37,649 nt of DNA from Candidatus Woesebacteria bacterium GW2011_GWC1_42_9 (GTDB taxonomy: Bacteria; Patescibacteriota; Microgenomatia; UBA8517). Under the pieces are notes generated by a model. It did not search any database, was not told the DNA's origin, and saw only the letters and a program-made list of their open reading frames with translations. The position numbers were made by a program, and so were the translations under genes. Positions 6,279-11,696 of this stretch are shown here, piece by piece. The stretch spans positions 1 through 37,649 of the forward strand of contig LCET01000006.1 of NCBI GenBank assembly GCA_000995185.1, in the 5' to 3' direction. How positions within the stretch are numbered: the first letter of the stretch is position 1; the number at the start of each line of letters is the position of its first letter.

Positions 6279-7163
6279 TTAGGCGTTTTCGATTGGGAAT
6301 TTTCCTAAGCCAGAAACTTCAAATTCTCTACATTGGCAGTTGCCAGTGTGATCGTTGATGACGGCTTTCATTGCGTTAGTGATCAACCTTGCTGTTATTG
6401 GTGCACATTCGCGATAGAAATTGGCCATTGCATCGGGACAGTCCCCAATCCATTCATGTCCATTTTCTGCGAAATTGCTGACGATGTTGATGGACGCGAA
6501 ATGGATTTCGGCATTCCTCATCGCAACAGCTTCATGAGCGACAGTTTGCCCGACAACATGGGCACCGTTATTTCTGAGAATTGATATCTCAGGAACAGTT
6601 TCAAACCGTCCCCATGGGGTGCATGCGTAGACGCCGCCGTCTTGGAAAGATAGACCTTCTTCCTTACAGGCTTTCATTAGCGATCTGCGAAGCATTTCAC
6701 AAAATGGTTTGGCCATTCGGAAGAAAGTTTTGTCCTTGTCCCTTGGCACCCTACCGACAGAGCTTGCAAACATTGGTATTGTCGGTGCCATAAAGAAATC
6801 ATCAGGAATGACTATACTCCATGGCGGGAGCGGACCACCTTCAAGATTTTGGATTCCTCCGACCGAGGCATCAACCAGGGCGTATTTCACACCAGCTTGC
6901 TTGAAAATCCAAGCCGTTTGCTTCGCAGAGATATTTGGTGGGATCATCTCCTGATCGTTCGGATATGAACCATGCATGGCCACTCTCAAAACGTGCACGC
7001 CGTTTATCTCCAAAAGCTTATATGGAGACGAAACCCCAAATGGGGTTGAGAATCCTTTGATGTGTTTCACTACCCGAATGCCCTTGTCGGTTTCTTCAGG
7101 AAATTGGATCGCCCAAGTGTTTGATCCGCCGATAAGTCCATATCTTGCTTCTAAATTGCTCAT
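6279..7163 (-). CDS. Nucleoside phosphorylase family protein (PNP/MTAP-like)
   Basis: The 294-residue protein belongs to the purine nucleoside phosphorylase / methylthioadenosine phosphorylase group. It begins with the phosphate-binding start ARYGLIGGSNTW. It has PPWSIVIPDDFF, equivalent to the GDLVIPDD segment. Near residues 182-230 is the characteristic GVYACTPWGRFETVPEI run, followed by NNGAHVVGQTVAHEAVAMRN. Such enzymes split a purine nucleoside (or methylthioadenosine) with phosphate into base and ribose 1-phosphate in the cytoplasm. Which nucleoside is used cannot be read from the sequence. It is the last gene of the importer operon: its ATG overlaps the upstream stop as ATGA, with a GGAGG site before it. 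Its sibling is the gene directly upstream. Confidence 0.85.
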   Translation of the reverse strand: MSNLEARYGLIGGSNTWAIQFPEETDKGIRVVKHIKGFSTPFGVSSPYKLLEINGVHVLRVAMHGSYPNDQEMIPPNISAKQTAWIFKQAGVKYALVDASVGGIQNLEGGPLPPWSIVIPDDFFMAPTIPMFASSVGRVPRDKDKTFFRMAKPFCEMLRRSLMKACKEEGLSFQDGGVYACTPWGRFETVPEISILRNNGAHVVGQTVAHEAVAMRNAEIHFASINIVSNFAENGHEWIGDCPDAMANFYRECAPITARLITNAMKAVINDHTGNCQCREFEVSGLGKFPIENA

Positions 7164-8113
7164 ATTTGTGCCTCCGTCATGGCTGAGCTAAACACTTCGG
7201 GTGCCTGGTGAAGGCTTGTGATACAAGCACATTGACTTCCATTTGGCACTGAAATGTTTTCCAAAAGATTCGCTTCCATTTCAAAAGCGACCTCTGGAAA
7301 GTTGTTGACATATAAACGATAGAGACTTTCGGTGATGGATTCTTCCATAGGCAATCCCTGGGCGACATTGGCCACCATGTGATAATAGGCGACATGGATC
7401 CCAAGGAGTCTCGCTAAAACCGGGTTAATACAATCTCCATGCAGACTGACGATTGGCGGCTTGTCAGGTTCAAATGATGAAGCCATCTTGTTAATGGCCA
7501 TCCACATGAGAATGTCGTAGTTTGTCTCAAAAGTTATCCCATCAGGAACAACTAGAGCGACCCGTACATTGTCAGGTGTATGAACTTTCCCAATTTGCCT
7601 GAGATGTTTTTGTGTCTCTTTCTGAAGATCCTCGGCGAGAACGGTGCAAAAAGGATCGTCAAGGGTGAGATCGTATTTCGGCCACGAAGTCTCATATTCG
7701 GTTCCAGGAAGCCCTCGATGATTAGGCGAAGTTCTAAAGCTCCAAGGAAGAACAATGTCTCCAGGGAGGATTTTCCCCTCTTTTCTCCAATCGGCAATTC
7801 CCGAAGTTCCGCCGATGATGAGGACTTTTACGCCCGCTTTCCAAAGGATCCAGAAGACTTTGTGTTGAGTCTCGTGTAGGTGCCAGTCTTGCCCGCTTAC
7901 ACCTCCATATGAGGGTATCCACAAGATGTTTCTACCCATTGTGTTAAAAACTATCGTCCTTGGGCCGATTCCGTATGGTGTGTCTGGGCGGCCATCAAAA
8001 TTGCATTCCCACCCCCTTTGAATGTACCCAAGCTTCACTCTATTAACAGAAACACCCCAAAGGGGACTTCCTGTTATAGAGGCGAAATCTGCCTTTCCTA
8101 AGGTGTTTTTCAT
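7160..8113 (-). CDS. Divergent nucleoside phosphorylase family protein
   Basis: The 317-residue protein is a distant paralogue of the next gene. Common features are an early GSPLWGVSVN segment, GVKVLIIGGTSGIADW followed by KILPGDIVLPWSF, and a late GITFETNYDILMW that aligns with the RFET region of nucleoside phosphorylases. Several residues around the purine site differ from the sibling, so its substrate may differ or it may be a non-identical partner subunit. I chose ATG 8113 over the longer open frame. An AAAGGAGAT site precedes it, and the ATG overlaps the permease stop as ATGA, while the extra upstream residues are antisense to nothing conserved and lie inside the permease gene. The role is inferred from fold family and operon. 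Confidence 0.7.
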   Translation of the reverse strand: MKNTLGKADFASITGSPLWGVSVNRVKLGYIQRGWECNFDGRPDTPYGIGPRTIVFNTMGRNILWIPSYGGVSGQDWHLHETQHKVFWILWKAGVKVLIIGGTSGIADWRKEGKILPGDIVLPWSFRTSPNHRGLPGTEYETSWPKYDLTLDDPFCTVLAEDLQKETQKHLRQIGKVHTPDNVRVALVVPDGITFETNYDILMWMAINKMASSFEPDKPPIVSLHGDCINPVLARLLGIHVAYYHMVANVAQGLPMEESITESLYRLYVNNFPEVAFEMEANLLENISVPNGSQCACITSLHQAPEVFSSAMTEAQI

Positions 8114-8859
8114 GAGCTTATCTCCTTTCTCCACCGATAGATTCGCTTTTCGATGAGTTTCACAGATAGGTATGCACAAACCGATAGAGCACTTGCGATT
8201 AGAGTAACCGCAAAAAGCATATCGGTTCGGTATTGAGACATTGAGCGCACTATAAGGAAACCGAGTCCCTCTCTTGCGAAAAGCCACTCGGCCACAATTG
8301 CGCCGATGATACTGCCAGTAAAGGCAATTTCATGGGCGGCAATATAATAGGGCATCGCCGAGCTCCAACGCACTTTCCAAAATACTTGCCACTTACTGGC
8401 ATTTAGAGTTTGCATGCGGTCAAGAAGCACTTGGTCGACAGATTTTAGTCCCTTGGTGACGTTTGCCAAGATTGGGAAAAATGTTACCAAGACCACGATA
8501 ATTATCCTAGGCAGAGGTGTATCCCCAAGCGTTATGACTAAGATACTTGCTATGGCAACGAATGGTACGTTTTTGATTACGACGGTCCAGGGAGTGAAAA
8601 AATCCTCCAGCCAGTTTACATAGATGAAGGCTATTGATAGCCCTACAGCTATGAAATTTGAGACCGCATAACCTGTCAGCGCGCCGATAAGTGTAATTTT
8701 GGTGTGATGCCAAAATACACCCTTGTCCTCCGCGAGTACCCTTATTACCAACTTTGGAGGAGGTAAAAGGAAAGACGGAGGATGAAATAGACCGATGACG
8801 ATTACCCAAAATACAGGCAAGGAAATCATCATGATTAGGTACGCTTTCCACGGCTTCAT
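8110..8859 (-). CDS. ABC importer permease (SsuC/TauC/ThiX-type)
   Basis: The 249-residue inner-membrane permease has about six transmembrane helices. The cytoplasmic coupling loop is recognisable as AAHEIAFTGSIIGAIVAEW, the EAA-type motif of binding-protein-dependent permeases. It is followed by LFAREGLGFLIVRSMSQYRT, which is typical of the nitrate/sulfonate/taurine/thiamine-precursor group. It would form a homodimer with two copies of the ATPase encoded just upstream. ATG 8859 lies 1 base after the ATPase stop and is preceded by GGAGG. It overlaps the phosphorylase gene by 4 bases, tying transport to the enzymes. Confidence 0.9.
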   Translation of the reverse strand: MKPWKAYLIMMISLPVFWVIVIGLFHPPSFLLPPPKLVIRVLAEDKGVFWHHTKITLIGALTGYAVSNFIAVGLSIAFIYVNWLEDFFTPWTVVIKNVPFVAIASILVITLGDTPLPRIIIVVLVTFFPILANVTKGLKSVDQVLLDRMQTLNASKWQVFWKVRWSSAMPYYIAAHEIAFTGSIIGAIVAEWLFAREGLGFLIVRSMSQYRTDMLFAVTLIASALSVCAYLSVKLIEKRIYRWRKEISS

Positions 8860-8860
8860 A

Positions 8861-9619
8861 TTATCCTCCGTTTACCATCTCATATAGAACTTCGCGAATT
8901 TTCCGCTCGTATTCCAGAAAACAGTCGCTGACTCTGGTCATACGATTCCTTGGCCTGGGGAGGTTAATGGTAAATTCCATATAAATTTCCCCAGGTGTTG
9001 GCGAGAGTACAATTACCCTGTCGGAGTGAAAAATTGCTTCCGGGACGCTGTGGGTGATAAAAAGGACTGTTTTGTTTGAATTAAACAGCACCTTCTTTTC
9101 AAACCACTCCGAAAGTCTGTCGCGGGTCATCATATCCAGTGCCCCAAAAGGTTCATCCATCAGAAGGATCTTTGGATTGTGGATCATCGCGCAAGCGATA
9201 TTAACCCTTTGTTCCATCCCGCCTGAAAGTTGTCCGGGGTATGAGTTAAGAAACTCTCCAAGGCCAAAATCGTTCAAAATTTCCTGTGGCGATTTTGCCC
9301 CGTTTTTCCTGCCGGTTATCTCAAGCGTGAGCATCACGTTATTAAGCGCGGTTCTTGACGCAAGTAAAGCCGGCTTTTGAAAGGCCACTCCAATTTCATG
9401 GCGCTTGCAAAGCTCAAGAGGTGGGTACCCGAAGGTCTCCACCTCTCCATTACTAGGTTTCTCAAGGCCGGCAACTATTCGGAGGAGGGTTGTCTTGCCG
9501 CAACCAGATGGTCCGATAAGCGAGACAAATTCTCCTTCCCGCACTTTGAGATTAATATTGCAAAGTGCATGCACGCTGCCGAACCATTTATGTACTGCGG
9601 TTAGCATTATTGCGGTCAC
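8861..9619 (-). CDS. ABC importer ATP-binding protein (SsuB/TauB-type)
   Basis: The 252-residue ATPase is complete. It has Walker A GPSGCGKTT at 36-44, a Q-loop in GVAFQKPALL, signature LSGGMEQ at 131-137, Walker B ILLMDEP at 151-157 and the switch His in FITHSVPEAI. The family couples ATP hydrolysis to import of sulfonates, nitrate, taurine or pyrimidine/riboflavin-type compounds. The start is GTG at 9619, preceded at the right distance by AAAGGAGG. Its neighbours in the operon are the binding protein upstream and the permease downstream. Confidence 0.93.
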   Translation of the reverse strand: MTAIMLTAVHKWFGSVHALCNINLKVREGEFVSLIGPSGCGKTTLLRIVAGLEKPSNGEVETFGYPPLELCKRHEIGVAFQKPALLASRTALNNVMLTLEITGRKNGAKSPQEILNDFGLGEFLNSYPGQLSGGMEQRVNIACAMIHNPKILLMDEPFGALDMMTRDRLSEWFEKKVLFNSNKTVLFITHSVPEAIFHSDRVIVLSPTPGEIYMEFTINLPRPRNRMTRVSDCFLEYERKIREVLYEMVNGG

Positions 9620-9638
9620 GGCTAACCTCCTTTATATG

Positions 9639-10685
9639 TTAGTCACCGCATTTGATCTGGCCGTATTGAACAAGCATTGCCACCATATCATCCCAAACGT
9701 CAGGGCTTGTGGCCATTAGACCCAGACCGTCATTGCCGATAACCAAATGTTCCTGCTGTTCGAAGCGCCCGACCGCGATTTCAGCGGATTCTTCCGGGTT
9801 ATCCAAAAGAAATTGAATGCCGCGGTAGGTCGCGCGCAGGAAACGGTTAACGATGTCTCGGCCTTCTTCAGCCTCAAGCATTTCGGGGCGGATGATTATG
9901 ACGTCGCTATACTCGTCATAAACCCAGTCGCGGTATTGCAGGCCATTCCATTCATGTCCTTCCTGCTCAAGCATCCGCGGCTGGTTCATGATCCAGCCGG
10001 AGTAGAAATCACATTGACCGACCAGCAGACAATCAGATGTGAATCCGGCGTATGAGACTTCCACCTGATCTCTGGGGATTTCGTACATATCCAGAAGCAT
10101 GTTCAAGTAGACATCAGCATCAGATTGGATTGCCACTGTTCGACCGATTAGGTCCTCTGGAGTTAGTTCGCGCCCCAAAAGTTCCGGGTCAATGGTAATG
10201 TAGGTATATGGCATTCCTTTAAGGAATGTGCCCACAACTACTACGTCCACTGGTGTCTCTGACATGATCGCGCGGGGAACTGCTGCTCCTCCCGGGACGA
10301 CGGCAATATCAATTACTCCGCCGCCGAGGGTGAGCAGGTGATTGATTCCTGGTCCGCCAGCGACGAGCTCGATTTCGAGTCCTTCTTCCGCAAAATACCC
10401 AAGCTCCTCCGCGATGTACCATGGGGCCTCTTCGTCGTTTAACACCCAAGGCATCCCGACCCGCAGGTGAACCGTTTCATCTAAGGGTACGATGTCAGCT
10501 AAGTCTTCGTCAGTGGGGACAAACTCGTTGGTGGTGTAGCCTGATGCTGGAAAATTCTCCAGAACACAGGCCATTGCCTCCTCATAAGTCATTGGTTCTT
10601 CATCCTGCGCCTGAACGGCGAAAGACCCGAAAAGTAGCGCGATAATGATTAAAGCCATCCCGATTGTGAACTTCTGCGTGAACAT
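9639..10685 (-). CDS. NMT1/THI5-like ABC substrate-binding protein
   Basis: The 348-residue exported binding protein has a signal peptide with a hydrophobic core (MALIIIALLFGSFAVQAQ) but no lipobox Cys, so how it is kept near the cell is unclear. The fold is suggested by LRVGMPWVLNDEEAPWYIA, AEELGYFAEEGLEIELVAGG and GVIDIAVVPGGAAVP. These match the NMT1/THI5-like group, whose members bind thiamine-pyrimidine precursors, riboflavin, sulfonates or related small molecules. The ligand here is unknown. Linkage to phosphorylases points to a nucleoside or nucleobase. The gene is noticeably GC-rich compared with its surroundings and has a very strong TAAAGGAGG site, both consistent with foreign origin. 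Confidence 0.85.
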   Translation of the reverse strand: MFTQKFTIGMALIIIALLFGSFAVQAQDEEPMTYEEAMACVLENFPASGYTTNEFVPTDEDLADIVPLDETVHLRVGMPWVLNDEEAPWYIAEELGYFAEEGLEIELVAGGPGINHLLTLGGGVIDIAVVPGGAAVPRAIMSETPVDVVVVGTFLKGMPYTYITIDPELLGRELTPEDLIGRTVAIQSDADVYLNMLLDMYEIPRDQVEVSYAGFTSDCLLVGQCDFYSGWIMNQPRMLEQEGHEWNGLQYRDWVYDEYSDVIIIRPEMLEAEEGRDIVNRFLRATYRGIQFLLDNPEESAEIAVGRFEQQEHLVIGNDGLGLMATSPDVWDDMVAMLVQYGQIKCGD

Positions 10686-10723: not shown

Positions 10724-10740
10724 TTGATTATAGTAATCAA
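10724..10740. promoter_or_regulatory. Perfect 17-base palindrome in the leader of the importer operon
   Basis: TTGATTA-TAG-TAATCAA lies 39 bases before the binding-protein ATG, with both 7-base arms matching exactly. It could be an operator for a dimeric repressor or a hairpin in the leader RNA. On the minus strand it also contains TATAAT, but I see no -35 box at the right distance. Confidence 0.5.
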
Positions 10741-10752
10741 CAGCATGGCTAC

Positions 10753-10770
10753 GTGCCGCAAAGGCGACAC
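10753..10770 (-). ncRNA. Structured leader RNA segment upstream of the importer operon
   Basis: On the minus strand GTGTCGC-CTTT-GCGGCAC can fold into a 7-base-pair hairpin with one G-U pair. It lies inside the roughly 120-base leader (10686-10806) between the terminator-like hairpin and the binding-protein gene. The rest of that leader is GC-rich and holds no convincing gene. A riboswitch is possible, but I do not recognise a known class. Confidence 0.35.
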
Positions 10771-10806
10771 CCAACCTTCTGTCGACTACCTGATGTTAAA
10801 GGGCCA

Positions 10807-10884
10807 TTAAAAATCCCCGCCTCGGCGGGGTATGCTTTTTAAACGAAAAACACTAATTCTGGTTAATACTGTCTTTTTATTCAT
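10807..10884 (-). CDS. 25-residue leader peptide of the importer operon
   Basis: This small frame starts at ATG 10884 and stops at TAA 10809-10807. A textbook site CTTTGGAGGAACTAAA precedes the ATG, one of the best in the window. The peptide begins MNKKTVLTRISVF and ends SIPRRGGDF; it is basic and has no membrane segment. Its last codons are the terminator hairpin itself: CCC-CGC-CGA-GGC-GGG encode PRRGG. A ribosome finishing the peptide would cover the hairpin, which is the geometry of translation-coupled attenuation. A promoter with the correct spacing lies just upstream. That it is translated is inferred from the site and layout; nothing else is known to me about this peptide. Confidence 0.6.
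   Translation of the reverse strand: MNKKTVLTRISVFRLKSIPRRGGDF
10815..10830. terminator. Terminator or attenuator hairpin inside the leader peptide frame
   Basis: CCCCGC-CTCG-GCGGGG forms a 6-base-pair all-GC stem with a tetraloop. On the minus strand it is followed by ATTTTTAA, giving an intrinsic terminator that would stop both read-through from the phosphoribosyltransferase gene and transcripts from the leader promoter. A second T-run follows on the plus strand. Confidence 0.7.
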
Positions 10885-10921
10885 TTTAGTTCCTCCAAAG
10901 ACAAGAGGTATTTCTCTGTAT

Positions 10922-11509
10922 CTACACCTTATGGGGTAATTGGTGCGTTGTCAACTGGTGATTATCTTTAAAAATGGGGAGAGTAGAGATATGTAGGAGA
11001 TTATCGAATTTATCAAAAGTTTCTCCTTGTTTTATTGCAACGGAATAAACCACTACTTTTGCCCCAACTTTCTCCATCAAGTGGGAGATCATTCTCATTG
11101 TTACCCCGGTAGACAAGACATCGTCGATGATGGCAACTTTTTTGTTTTCCAGGAGCTTGGCGTCCGGACCATTTAAGACTAAAGGCTTGATGTGTTTAGG
11201 AAAGTGGCTTAAAGGCTTTACGATCACTGGCGAGGTCATGTAAGTCTTAATGCTTTTTCGGCAGACCATAAAGCGCTTGTGTCCTAAAATTTCGGCAATT
11301 TTTTGGATTAAAGGGACTACTTTTACTTCGGGGCCAACCAGATAGTCAAATTTATATTTTGTTAGATCCTTGGCCATCTTTAACGCAAGCTTGTCGACAA
11401 GCTCTACGTCTCCGAGGATTGAGAAGCTCGCAATCTTGGTGCTGCGCCCAACTTGGATTAGGGGAAGCTTTCTGGTTAATCCAACGATTTTAAGAGTGTG
11501 GTACTGCAC
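10922..11509 (-). CDS. Purine-type phosphoribosyltransferase (Apt/Xpt-like)
   Basis: The 195-residue type I phosphoribosyltransferase has the PRPP-binding motif as KVAIIDDVLSTGVTMR (about 125-140). Its VGPEVKVVPLIQKIAEILG and RKSIKTYM segments resemble adenine and xanthine phosphoribosyltransferases. It would convert a purine base plus PRPP to the nucleotide in the cytoplasm. Adenine, guanine, hypoxanthine or xanthine cannot be distinguished from sequence alone. The start is GTG 11509, with TATAAT ending 8 bases before it. There is no in-frame ATG nearby. The gene lies directly upstream of the importer and phosphorylase operon, so bases released by the phosphorylases could be captured by this enzyme. 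Confidence 0.8.
   Translation of the reverse strand: MQYHTLKIVGLTRKLPLIQVGRSTKIASFSILGDVELVDKLALKMAKDLTKYKFDYLVGPEVKVVPLIQKIAEILGHKRFMVCRKSIKTYMTSPVIVKPLSHFPKHIKPLVLNGPDAKLLENKKVAIIDDVLSTGVTMRMISHLMEKVGAKVVVYSVAIKQGETFDKFDNLLHISTLPIFKDNHQLTTHQLPHKV
10926..10954 (-). promoter_or_regulatory. Promoter of the leader peptide and importer operon
   Basis: On the minus strand a perfect TTGACA (10954-10949), a 17-base spacer and TAAGGT (10931-10926). Transcription would start near 10919, giving a leader of about 35 bases before the small ATG at 10884. It overlaps the last codons of the upstream phosphoribosyltransferase gene. Confidence 0.65.
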
Positions 11510-11559: not shown

Positions 11560-11602
11560 GGCCCCATCGTCTTAGCCTTTGGTTAGACGGTTGGCTTTGA
11601 CA
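11560..11602 (+). pseudogene. tRNA-Glu 5'-half-like fragment
   Basis: The first 13 bases (GGCCCCATCGTCT) are identical to the start of the intact tRNA-Glu 56 bases downstream. A D-stem can form perfectly (GTCT with AGAC), but no anticodon stem, T-arm or 3' acceptor strand follows. It looks like a partial tRNA duplication or a decayed copy sharing the same transcript. The 3' boundary is approximate. Confidence 0.5.
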
Positions 11603-11615
11603 GTGTATTACACAT

Positions 11616-11688
11616 GGCCCCATCGTCTAGTGGCCTAGGACAGTAGGTTCTCATCCTACAAACCAGGGTTCAAATCCCTGTGGGGTCA
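11616..11688 (+). tRNA. tRNA-Glu (anticodon CTC)
   Basis: A 73-base cloverleaf: acceptor GGCCCCA pairs with TGGGGTC (one G-U), discriminator A. The anticodon stem GTAGG/CCTAC encloses loop TTCTCAT, reading anticodon CTC for Glu. The T-arm is CAGGG-TTCAAAT-CCCTG. The 3' CCA is not encoded, so it must be added by a CCA transferase. Confidence 0.95.
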
Positions 11689-11696
11689 CAAAAGGG

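Follow-up and report, generated by a model that had tools for sequence, protein, structure and literature searches.

In leader-peptide attenuators of the trp type, a ribosome on a short leader frame decides whether a terminator forms. PyrR is an attenuation protein with a phosphoribosyltransferase fold, and its gene adjoins its RNA sites. In the PyrR-dependent pyr attenuators, a phosphoribosyltransferase gene is followed by an intercistronic attenuator and then by genes for nucleobase uptake or synthesis. In the SAM-II riboswitch of Sinorhizobium meliloti metA, a pseudoknot hides the Shine-Dalgarno sequence, and a first AUG, an intrinsic terminator and the gene come after it (PMC9373788). In Proteobacteria, NMT1/THI5-like transporters are controlled by a xanthine riboswitch, which links them to purines (PMC7373994).

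The leader analysed here lies on the minus strand of a 37,649-nt stretch of DNA from Candidatus Woesebacteria bacterium GW2011_GWC1_42_9 (contig LCET01000006.1; hereafter the window). Like the pyr attenuators, it occupies an intercistronic position between a phosphoribosyltransferase gene and genes for nucleobase uptake or synthesis; however, the pyr systems combine pyrimidine genes with a PyrR hairpin, whereas purine genes and a pseudoknot are found here. As in trp-type attenuators, a ribosome on a short frame is proposed to decide the fate of the terminator, but the leader has no regulatory codons, peptide conservation or alternative antiterminator, and its sensor is placed upstream of the frame. 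In anatomy the nearest system is the metA SAM-II leader. Both carry an H-type pseudoknot over the Shine-Dalgarno sequence, then an AUG, a terminator and the gene (PMC9373788). The two differ in their genes (methionine versus purine), and the leader has no match to the Rfam SAM-II model. Furthermore, metA is translated from a second AUG, and the abstract of its report does not describe a conserved leader frame spanning the terminator (PMC9373788). The NMT1-motif xanthine riboswitch shares the link to NMT1/THI5-like transporters and purine metabolism, but it is a bulged hairpin described only from Proteobacteria (PMC7373994), and the leader has no Rfam match to it. In Mycobacterium tuberculosis B12 riboswitches with upstream ORFs, an RNA sensor likewise controls the translation of a short upstream ORF, which in turn affects the next gene; the coupling to ppe2 occurs by termination-reinitiation (PMC11260477), whereas action on an intrinsic terminator is proposed for the leader.

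No Rfam 15 family matches the leader at its curated score, and only chance matches were obtained. Neither SAM-II nor preQ1, which are other small pseudoknots, is matched, and the Rfam model of the PyrR-binding hairpin reaches 15.2 bits against a cut-off of 54. Neither a description of the element nor a report of any regulatory RNA class from the Candidate Phyla Radiation was found in the open literature that was searched. Cis-regulatory, riboswitch-like RNAs are a known kind; what appears to be new is this particular RNA family, together with a coupling that runs through a frame spanning the terminator.

The leader follows an adenine phosphoribosyltransferase (APRT) gene (10922..11509, minus strand), which belongs to the NCBIfam NF005592/PRK07322 subfamily (172 bits versus a cut-off of 143) and also matches Pfam Pribosyltran. 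The leader promoter (10926..10954) comprises TTGACA at 10954-10949, a 17-nt spacer and TAAGGT at 10931-10926; the latter matches TATAAT at only three of six positions, A2 and T6 among them. About 35 nt lie between this promoter and the ATG at 10884, with GGAGG at 10896-10892 as the Shine-Dalgarno sequence. The ATG opens a short ORF of 25 codons (10807..10884; MNKKTVLTRISVFRLKSIPRRGGDF), the stop of which ends at 10807. The ORF reads through an intrinsic terminator (10809..10830) formed by the hairpin CCCCGC-CGAG-GCGGGG (10830-10815) and the following ATTTTT, with the T-run at 10813-10809, so that the hairpin encodes P-R-R-G-G of the short ORF. The promoter, the consensus ribosome site and the frame with its embedded hairpin are all present as the first-pass annotation had read them. 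Taken by itself, the single sequence gives weak evidence for the leader, since a generic scan did not list the leader promoter and returned terminator-like sites at chance frequency. The possibility that the terminator hairpin is a genome-wide repeat was rejected because its perfect form occurs at just one other place in the genome. Two further features were observed nearby. The APRT protein carries a C-terminal extension, NHQLTTHQLPHKV (10922-10965, minus strand), that is absent in relatives, and its codons hold the leader promoter. At 11560-11690 on the plus strand, a partial copy of the 5´ half of tRNA-Glu (GGCCCCATCGTCTTAGCC) is located just upstream of an intact tRNA-Glu gene (11616-11689).

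The 5´ end of the leader forms an H-type pseudoknot, which is defined by comparison of relatives. In the window, an unpaired strand CAG-AGAAAUA (10909..10918) precedes helix P1, in which CCUCU (10904..10908) pairs with GGAGG (10892..10896), the Shine-Dalgarno sequence of the short ORF. The loop of P1 contains GUCUUU (10897..10902), which pairs with AAAGAC (10871..10876) in codons 3-5 of the short ORF to form P2. Each element has the same arrangement: an unpaired CAG-NN-UAAUA, a P1 of 5-6 bp, and a loop the last bases of which pair 13-34 nt downstream. The P2 sequences of relatives include GAUCUU/AAGAUC, GCCUUA/UAAGGC, GUAUCC/GGAUAC, UUCCUU/AAGGAA, UAGCCAA/UUGGCUA, UGUGCC/GGCACA and, at AUGGCA, GCC/GGC. 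When the loops were permuted among 17 sequences, none of 100,000 permutations reached the observed pairing between loop and downstream strand, and P1 behaved likewise. Two-sided changes are seen in all 11 helix pairs of an alignment of 20 sequences, which was trimmed by hand of its variable loop and linker bases because MAFFT was unable to align the variable loops; the trimmed sequences were used for both models and pair counts. P1 is 96.7% paired, and all six of its pairs show two-sided changes. The covariation score of 0.915 compares with 0.291 (sd 0.035) for shuffled alignments, and it falls to 0.236 or less after sliding by 1-3 columns. Conversely, the most conserved bases in these 20 sequences are the unpaired CAG and AAUA, with columns C5, A6, A11, A12 and A14 conserved at 90-100%. 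The retention of unpaired 5´ bases while the helices vary suggests, on comparative grounds, that this strand is a putative binding site, as expected of an aptamer or a protein site and not of a mere mask over the start codon. As in a riboswitch, the 5´ leader contains a structured, aptamer-like domain with covarying helices and conserved unpaired bases, and this domain is linked to an expression platform, either a terminator or occlusion of a start codon.

The search for relatives followed APRT orthologs through the family of the window, then its class and then its phylum, and 24 elements were found in 11 families of one phylum, three of them outside the class of the window. All 24 lie directly downstream of the same APRT gene family, a count that reflects searching around APRT except for the RNA-model searches, and an APRT gene precedes the RNA in every genome in which the RNA was found. 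Within the family of the window, two genomes (G022 and G021) again have a TTGACA/T promoter behind APRT, with a leader, a short frame and a terminator after it, and four others (G005, G018, G020 and G060) have a closely related leader after APRT. A TTGA-type -35 element occurs at the matching place in 20 of the 24 elements, with a mean promoter match of 8.6 of 12 versus 6.0 in shuffles (shuffle maximum 6.8), and its spacing puts the predicted 5´ end of the RNA only a few nucleotides ahead of where conservation begins.

This position next to a phosphoribosyltransferase gene raises the main rival reading, in which the upstream protein, in the manner of PyrR, responds to purine nucleotides or PRPP by binding the pseudoknot and in this way governs the genes that follow. 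Besides the constant APRT neighbour, no credible second copy of the element was recovered in whole-genome RNA-model searches, and guaB genes unlinked to APRT have no element upstream; the APRT profile also matches PyrR structures, although weakly. The searches were of limited sensitivity, however: RNA model R2, run over 374 genomes, missed many known copies, so that exclusive linkage to APRT is not proven. Its sole extra match (L124) was rejected for showing no sign of the element, as were putative second copies in G109 and G272, which lie within coding sequence or have no P2. Furthermore, the protein retains its PRPP loop intact and belongs to a catalytic APRT subfamily, its similarity to PyrR is distant, and APRT genes without the RNA exist at five loci (L105 in G050, L111 in G345, L117, L118 and L120). 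In G050 the RNA-less APRT gene is followed directly by purF, and at L117, L118 and L120 by an MTA-phosphorylase-like gene, which indicates that the operon logic persists without the element. We consider regulation by the neighbouring protein unlikely, although exclusive linkage to one gene would be unusual for a free riboswitch and counts against the reading that we prefer, a purine-responsive pseudoknot.

The short frame provides the second line of comparison. Fifteen elements combine a clear terminator with a start beside P2. In every one of them the frame is open to the terminator, with no stop codon ending further than 13 nt ahead of the terminator arm; the frames end just before the arm, in the hairpin loop or past it. 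Where at least 30 nt had to be covered, 10 of 10 frames were open, compared with 2 of 10 and 6 of 10 in the other two frames, with the start codon picked by its position next to P2 and not blindly. Shuffles gave a mean of 3.5 open frames of 10, and none of 20,000 was as good as observed. Two elements outside the class have UUG starts, and their frames likewise run through the terminator. As in leader attenuators, the frame, with its predicted translation, abuts or overlaps the terminator. Its recurring openness, together with the recurrence of the promoter, lifts the leader features beyond chance. The encoded peptides, in contrast, range from 6 to about 37 codons and share nothing beyond the first few residues, and no regulatory codons, codon run or residue pattern was found in those of relatives. 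By these sequence comparisons, it is the open reading of the short frame, and not the peptide, that has been conserved, and its translation is predicted.

These data bear on the idea of a classical leader-peptide attenuator, in which stalling at codons or on the nascent peptide senses the supply of Arg or a ligand. The strong ribosome site and the overlap of the short frame with the terminator are what such an attenuator would need. However, the variable peptides offer nothing common to sense, no competing antiterminator is present, and the covarying pseudoknot is left unexplained, which makes this reading very improbable. The first-pass annotation had proposed an attenuator with a leader peptide. 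Its coupling of short-frame initiation to the terminator hairpin agrees with the comparison, including the suggestion that poor initiation upstream would allow termination. The proposed sensing through Arg codons or the nascent chain is not supported, given that the peptide differs in every relative and only the openness of the frame is kept. A peptide shared among relatives that carry this operon was also a requirement of that proposal, and none was found: G147 and G459 share the importer genes of the window and encode different peptides. The attenuator survives this failure since the conserved part is the RNA. The covarying pseudoknot, the fixed place after the APRT gene and the purine role of the downstream genes had been missed.

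Terminators occur at the corresponding place in most other elements. There are exceptions: L113 lacks a start codon ahead of its terminator, a canonical terminator is missing from L102 and L116, and L192 is degenerate, having a weak P2 and lacking a start codon. G109 and G094 have no terminator, and there guaB itself begins with the AUG at P2. In G110, the AUG at P2 is located shortly before a gene of 248 aa, which is followed by a purA-like gene. A switch between antiterminator and terminator made of RNA only was rejected because complementarity of the terminator arms to their own leader is at chance level (p about 0.11 and 0.31). As neither arm has a conserved RNA antiterminator, the coupling is most simply, and probably, provided by a ribosome that translates the short frame. 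The pseudoknot could also gate translation and act mainly through mRNA stability or through Rho and other effects on untranslated RNA, with the terminator ending a small RNA linked to APRT. The promoter and terminator of the leader do delimit a unit of about 110 nt, and three elements misfit the ORF-terminator pattern; nevertheless, the conservation of an open frame up to the terminator and, in several genomes, the presence of genes that begin no more than about 15 nt from it make this alternative quite improbable.

The genes behind the element point to purines, although several of the names used here are our reading of the sequences and do not come from a family search. In the window, the putative regulated operon (6279..10685, minus strand) comprises five genes after the leader, which encode an NMT1-type binding protein (10685-9639), an ATPase (9619-8861), a permease (8859-8110), a protein of 375 aa that matches neither Pfam nor NCBIfam (8287-7160) and a protein similar to MTA/purine nucleoside phosphorylases (7163-6279). 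The same operon follows APRT and the RNA in G147, where three of the proteins are 48, 62 and 43% identical to those of the window. The 375-aa protein is 62% identical to its counterpart there; its gene is followed by a phosphorylase-like gene, and it may be a divergent subunit of a nucleoside phosphorylase. NMT1-type importers with nucleoside-phosphorylase-like genes follow the RNA in the window, G147 and G459, in the last of which the importer comes after APRT and the RNA, and are found about 4 kb downstream in G110. In three genomes (G217, G272 and G128), the distance from the terminator to the purF start is about 15 nt at most, too short for another promoter. The RNA is followed by guaB-purB-purA-XGPRT-guaA in G109 and by guaB in G094. 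A phosphorylase-BMP fusion (PNP-BMP) follows it in G022, G540 and G656, and ECF transporters do so in G043, G076 and G199, with an adenine-deaminase-like gene next in G199. The genes after the RNA in G005, G018, G020 and G060 have no assigned function. At three loci in the family of the window (L008, L009 and L007), the RNA is followed by genes for two small conserved proteins, about 125 and 90 aa in length and without assigned function. The importer genes of the window show a patchy distribution, with homologs in Caldilineaceae. Joint inheritance of the leader with a Chloroflexota importer was rejected, as no such leader was found upstream of 18 importer homologs (16 of them from Caldilineaceae).

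In the window, the T-run ends about 120 nt before the importer start, and a TATAAT is present near 10735. The short frame might accordingly be a chance ORF over the ordinary terminator of the upstream gene, with the importer driven by its own promoter farther downstream. However, this TATAAT overlaps the end of a second predicted hairpin and has no good -35 element, and the covariation, promoter and open-frame statistics disfavour such a reading, which is hardly credible. The second hairpin (10732..10790, minus strand) is long and near-perfect, has no T-run and lies between the terminator and the importer gene. Counterparts occur past the terminators at L004, L107 and L193 (G022, G147 and G459), making four genomes with the window. 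Its stem is GACAGCAG...CUGCUGUC in G022 and similar in G147, and it may represent a further regulatory, processing or operator element.

The pseudoknot, the promoter, the conserved open frame, the terminator and the gene context are established by sequence comparison; the ligand, the direction of control and the coupling through the ribosome are inferred. In the reading that we find the most probable, and somewhat better than evenly balanced, a purine-responsive pseudoknot, either a riboswitch or a protein-bound RNA, gates the short frame, and translation of the frame prevents termination. The first ~50 nt of the leader would fold into the H-type pseudoknot, with the conserved unpaired 5´ strand as the sensor. 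The signal that stabilizes it would probably be a purine-related metabolite or, less likely, the neighbouring phosphoribosyltransferase protein. In the stable pseudoknot, P1 would hide the ribosome site and P2 the first codons of the short frame, which would then stay silent, allowing the terminator to form and turning the importer operon off. When the signal is absent, a ribosome translating the short frame would arrive at the terminator or pass through it, the hairpin would not form, and RNA polymerase would read on into the operon. The peptide itself would be without function. In some relatives, the guaB start codon would be covered directly by this pseudoknot, and it is from this start occlusion that the direction, off when bound, is deduced. 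The fuller proposition is about as likely to be right as wrong: that the element represents a new riboswitch class across the phylum of the window, in which a purine-sensing pseudoknot gates a non-conserved frame and a ribosome at the terminator switches the operon on, while the same aptamer acts directly on guaB elsewhere.

This case shows that single-sequence readings of leader peptides can name the wrong sensor. Defined by covariation across 11 families, the RNA is small and directly testable. A platform that leads from a sensor through short-frame translation to a terminator would join riboswitch logic with ribosome-mediated attenuation. The RNA also marks purine-scavenging genes of reduced bacteria, including two types of transporter without an assigned substrate.
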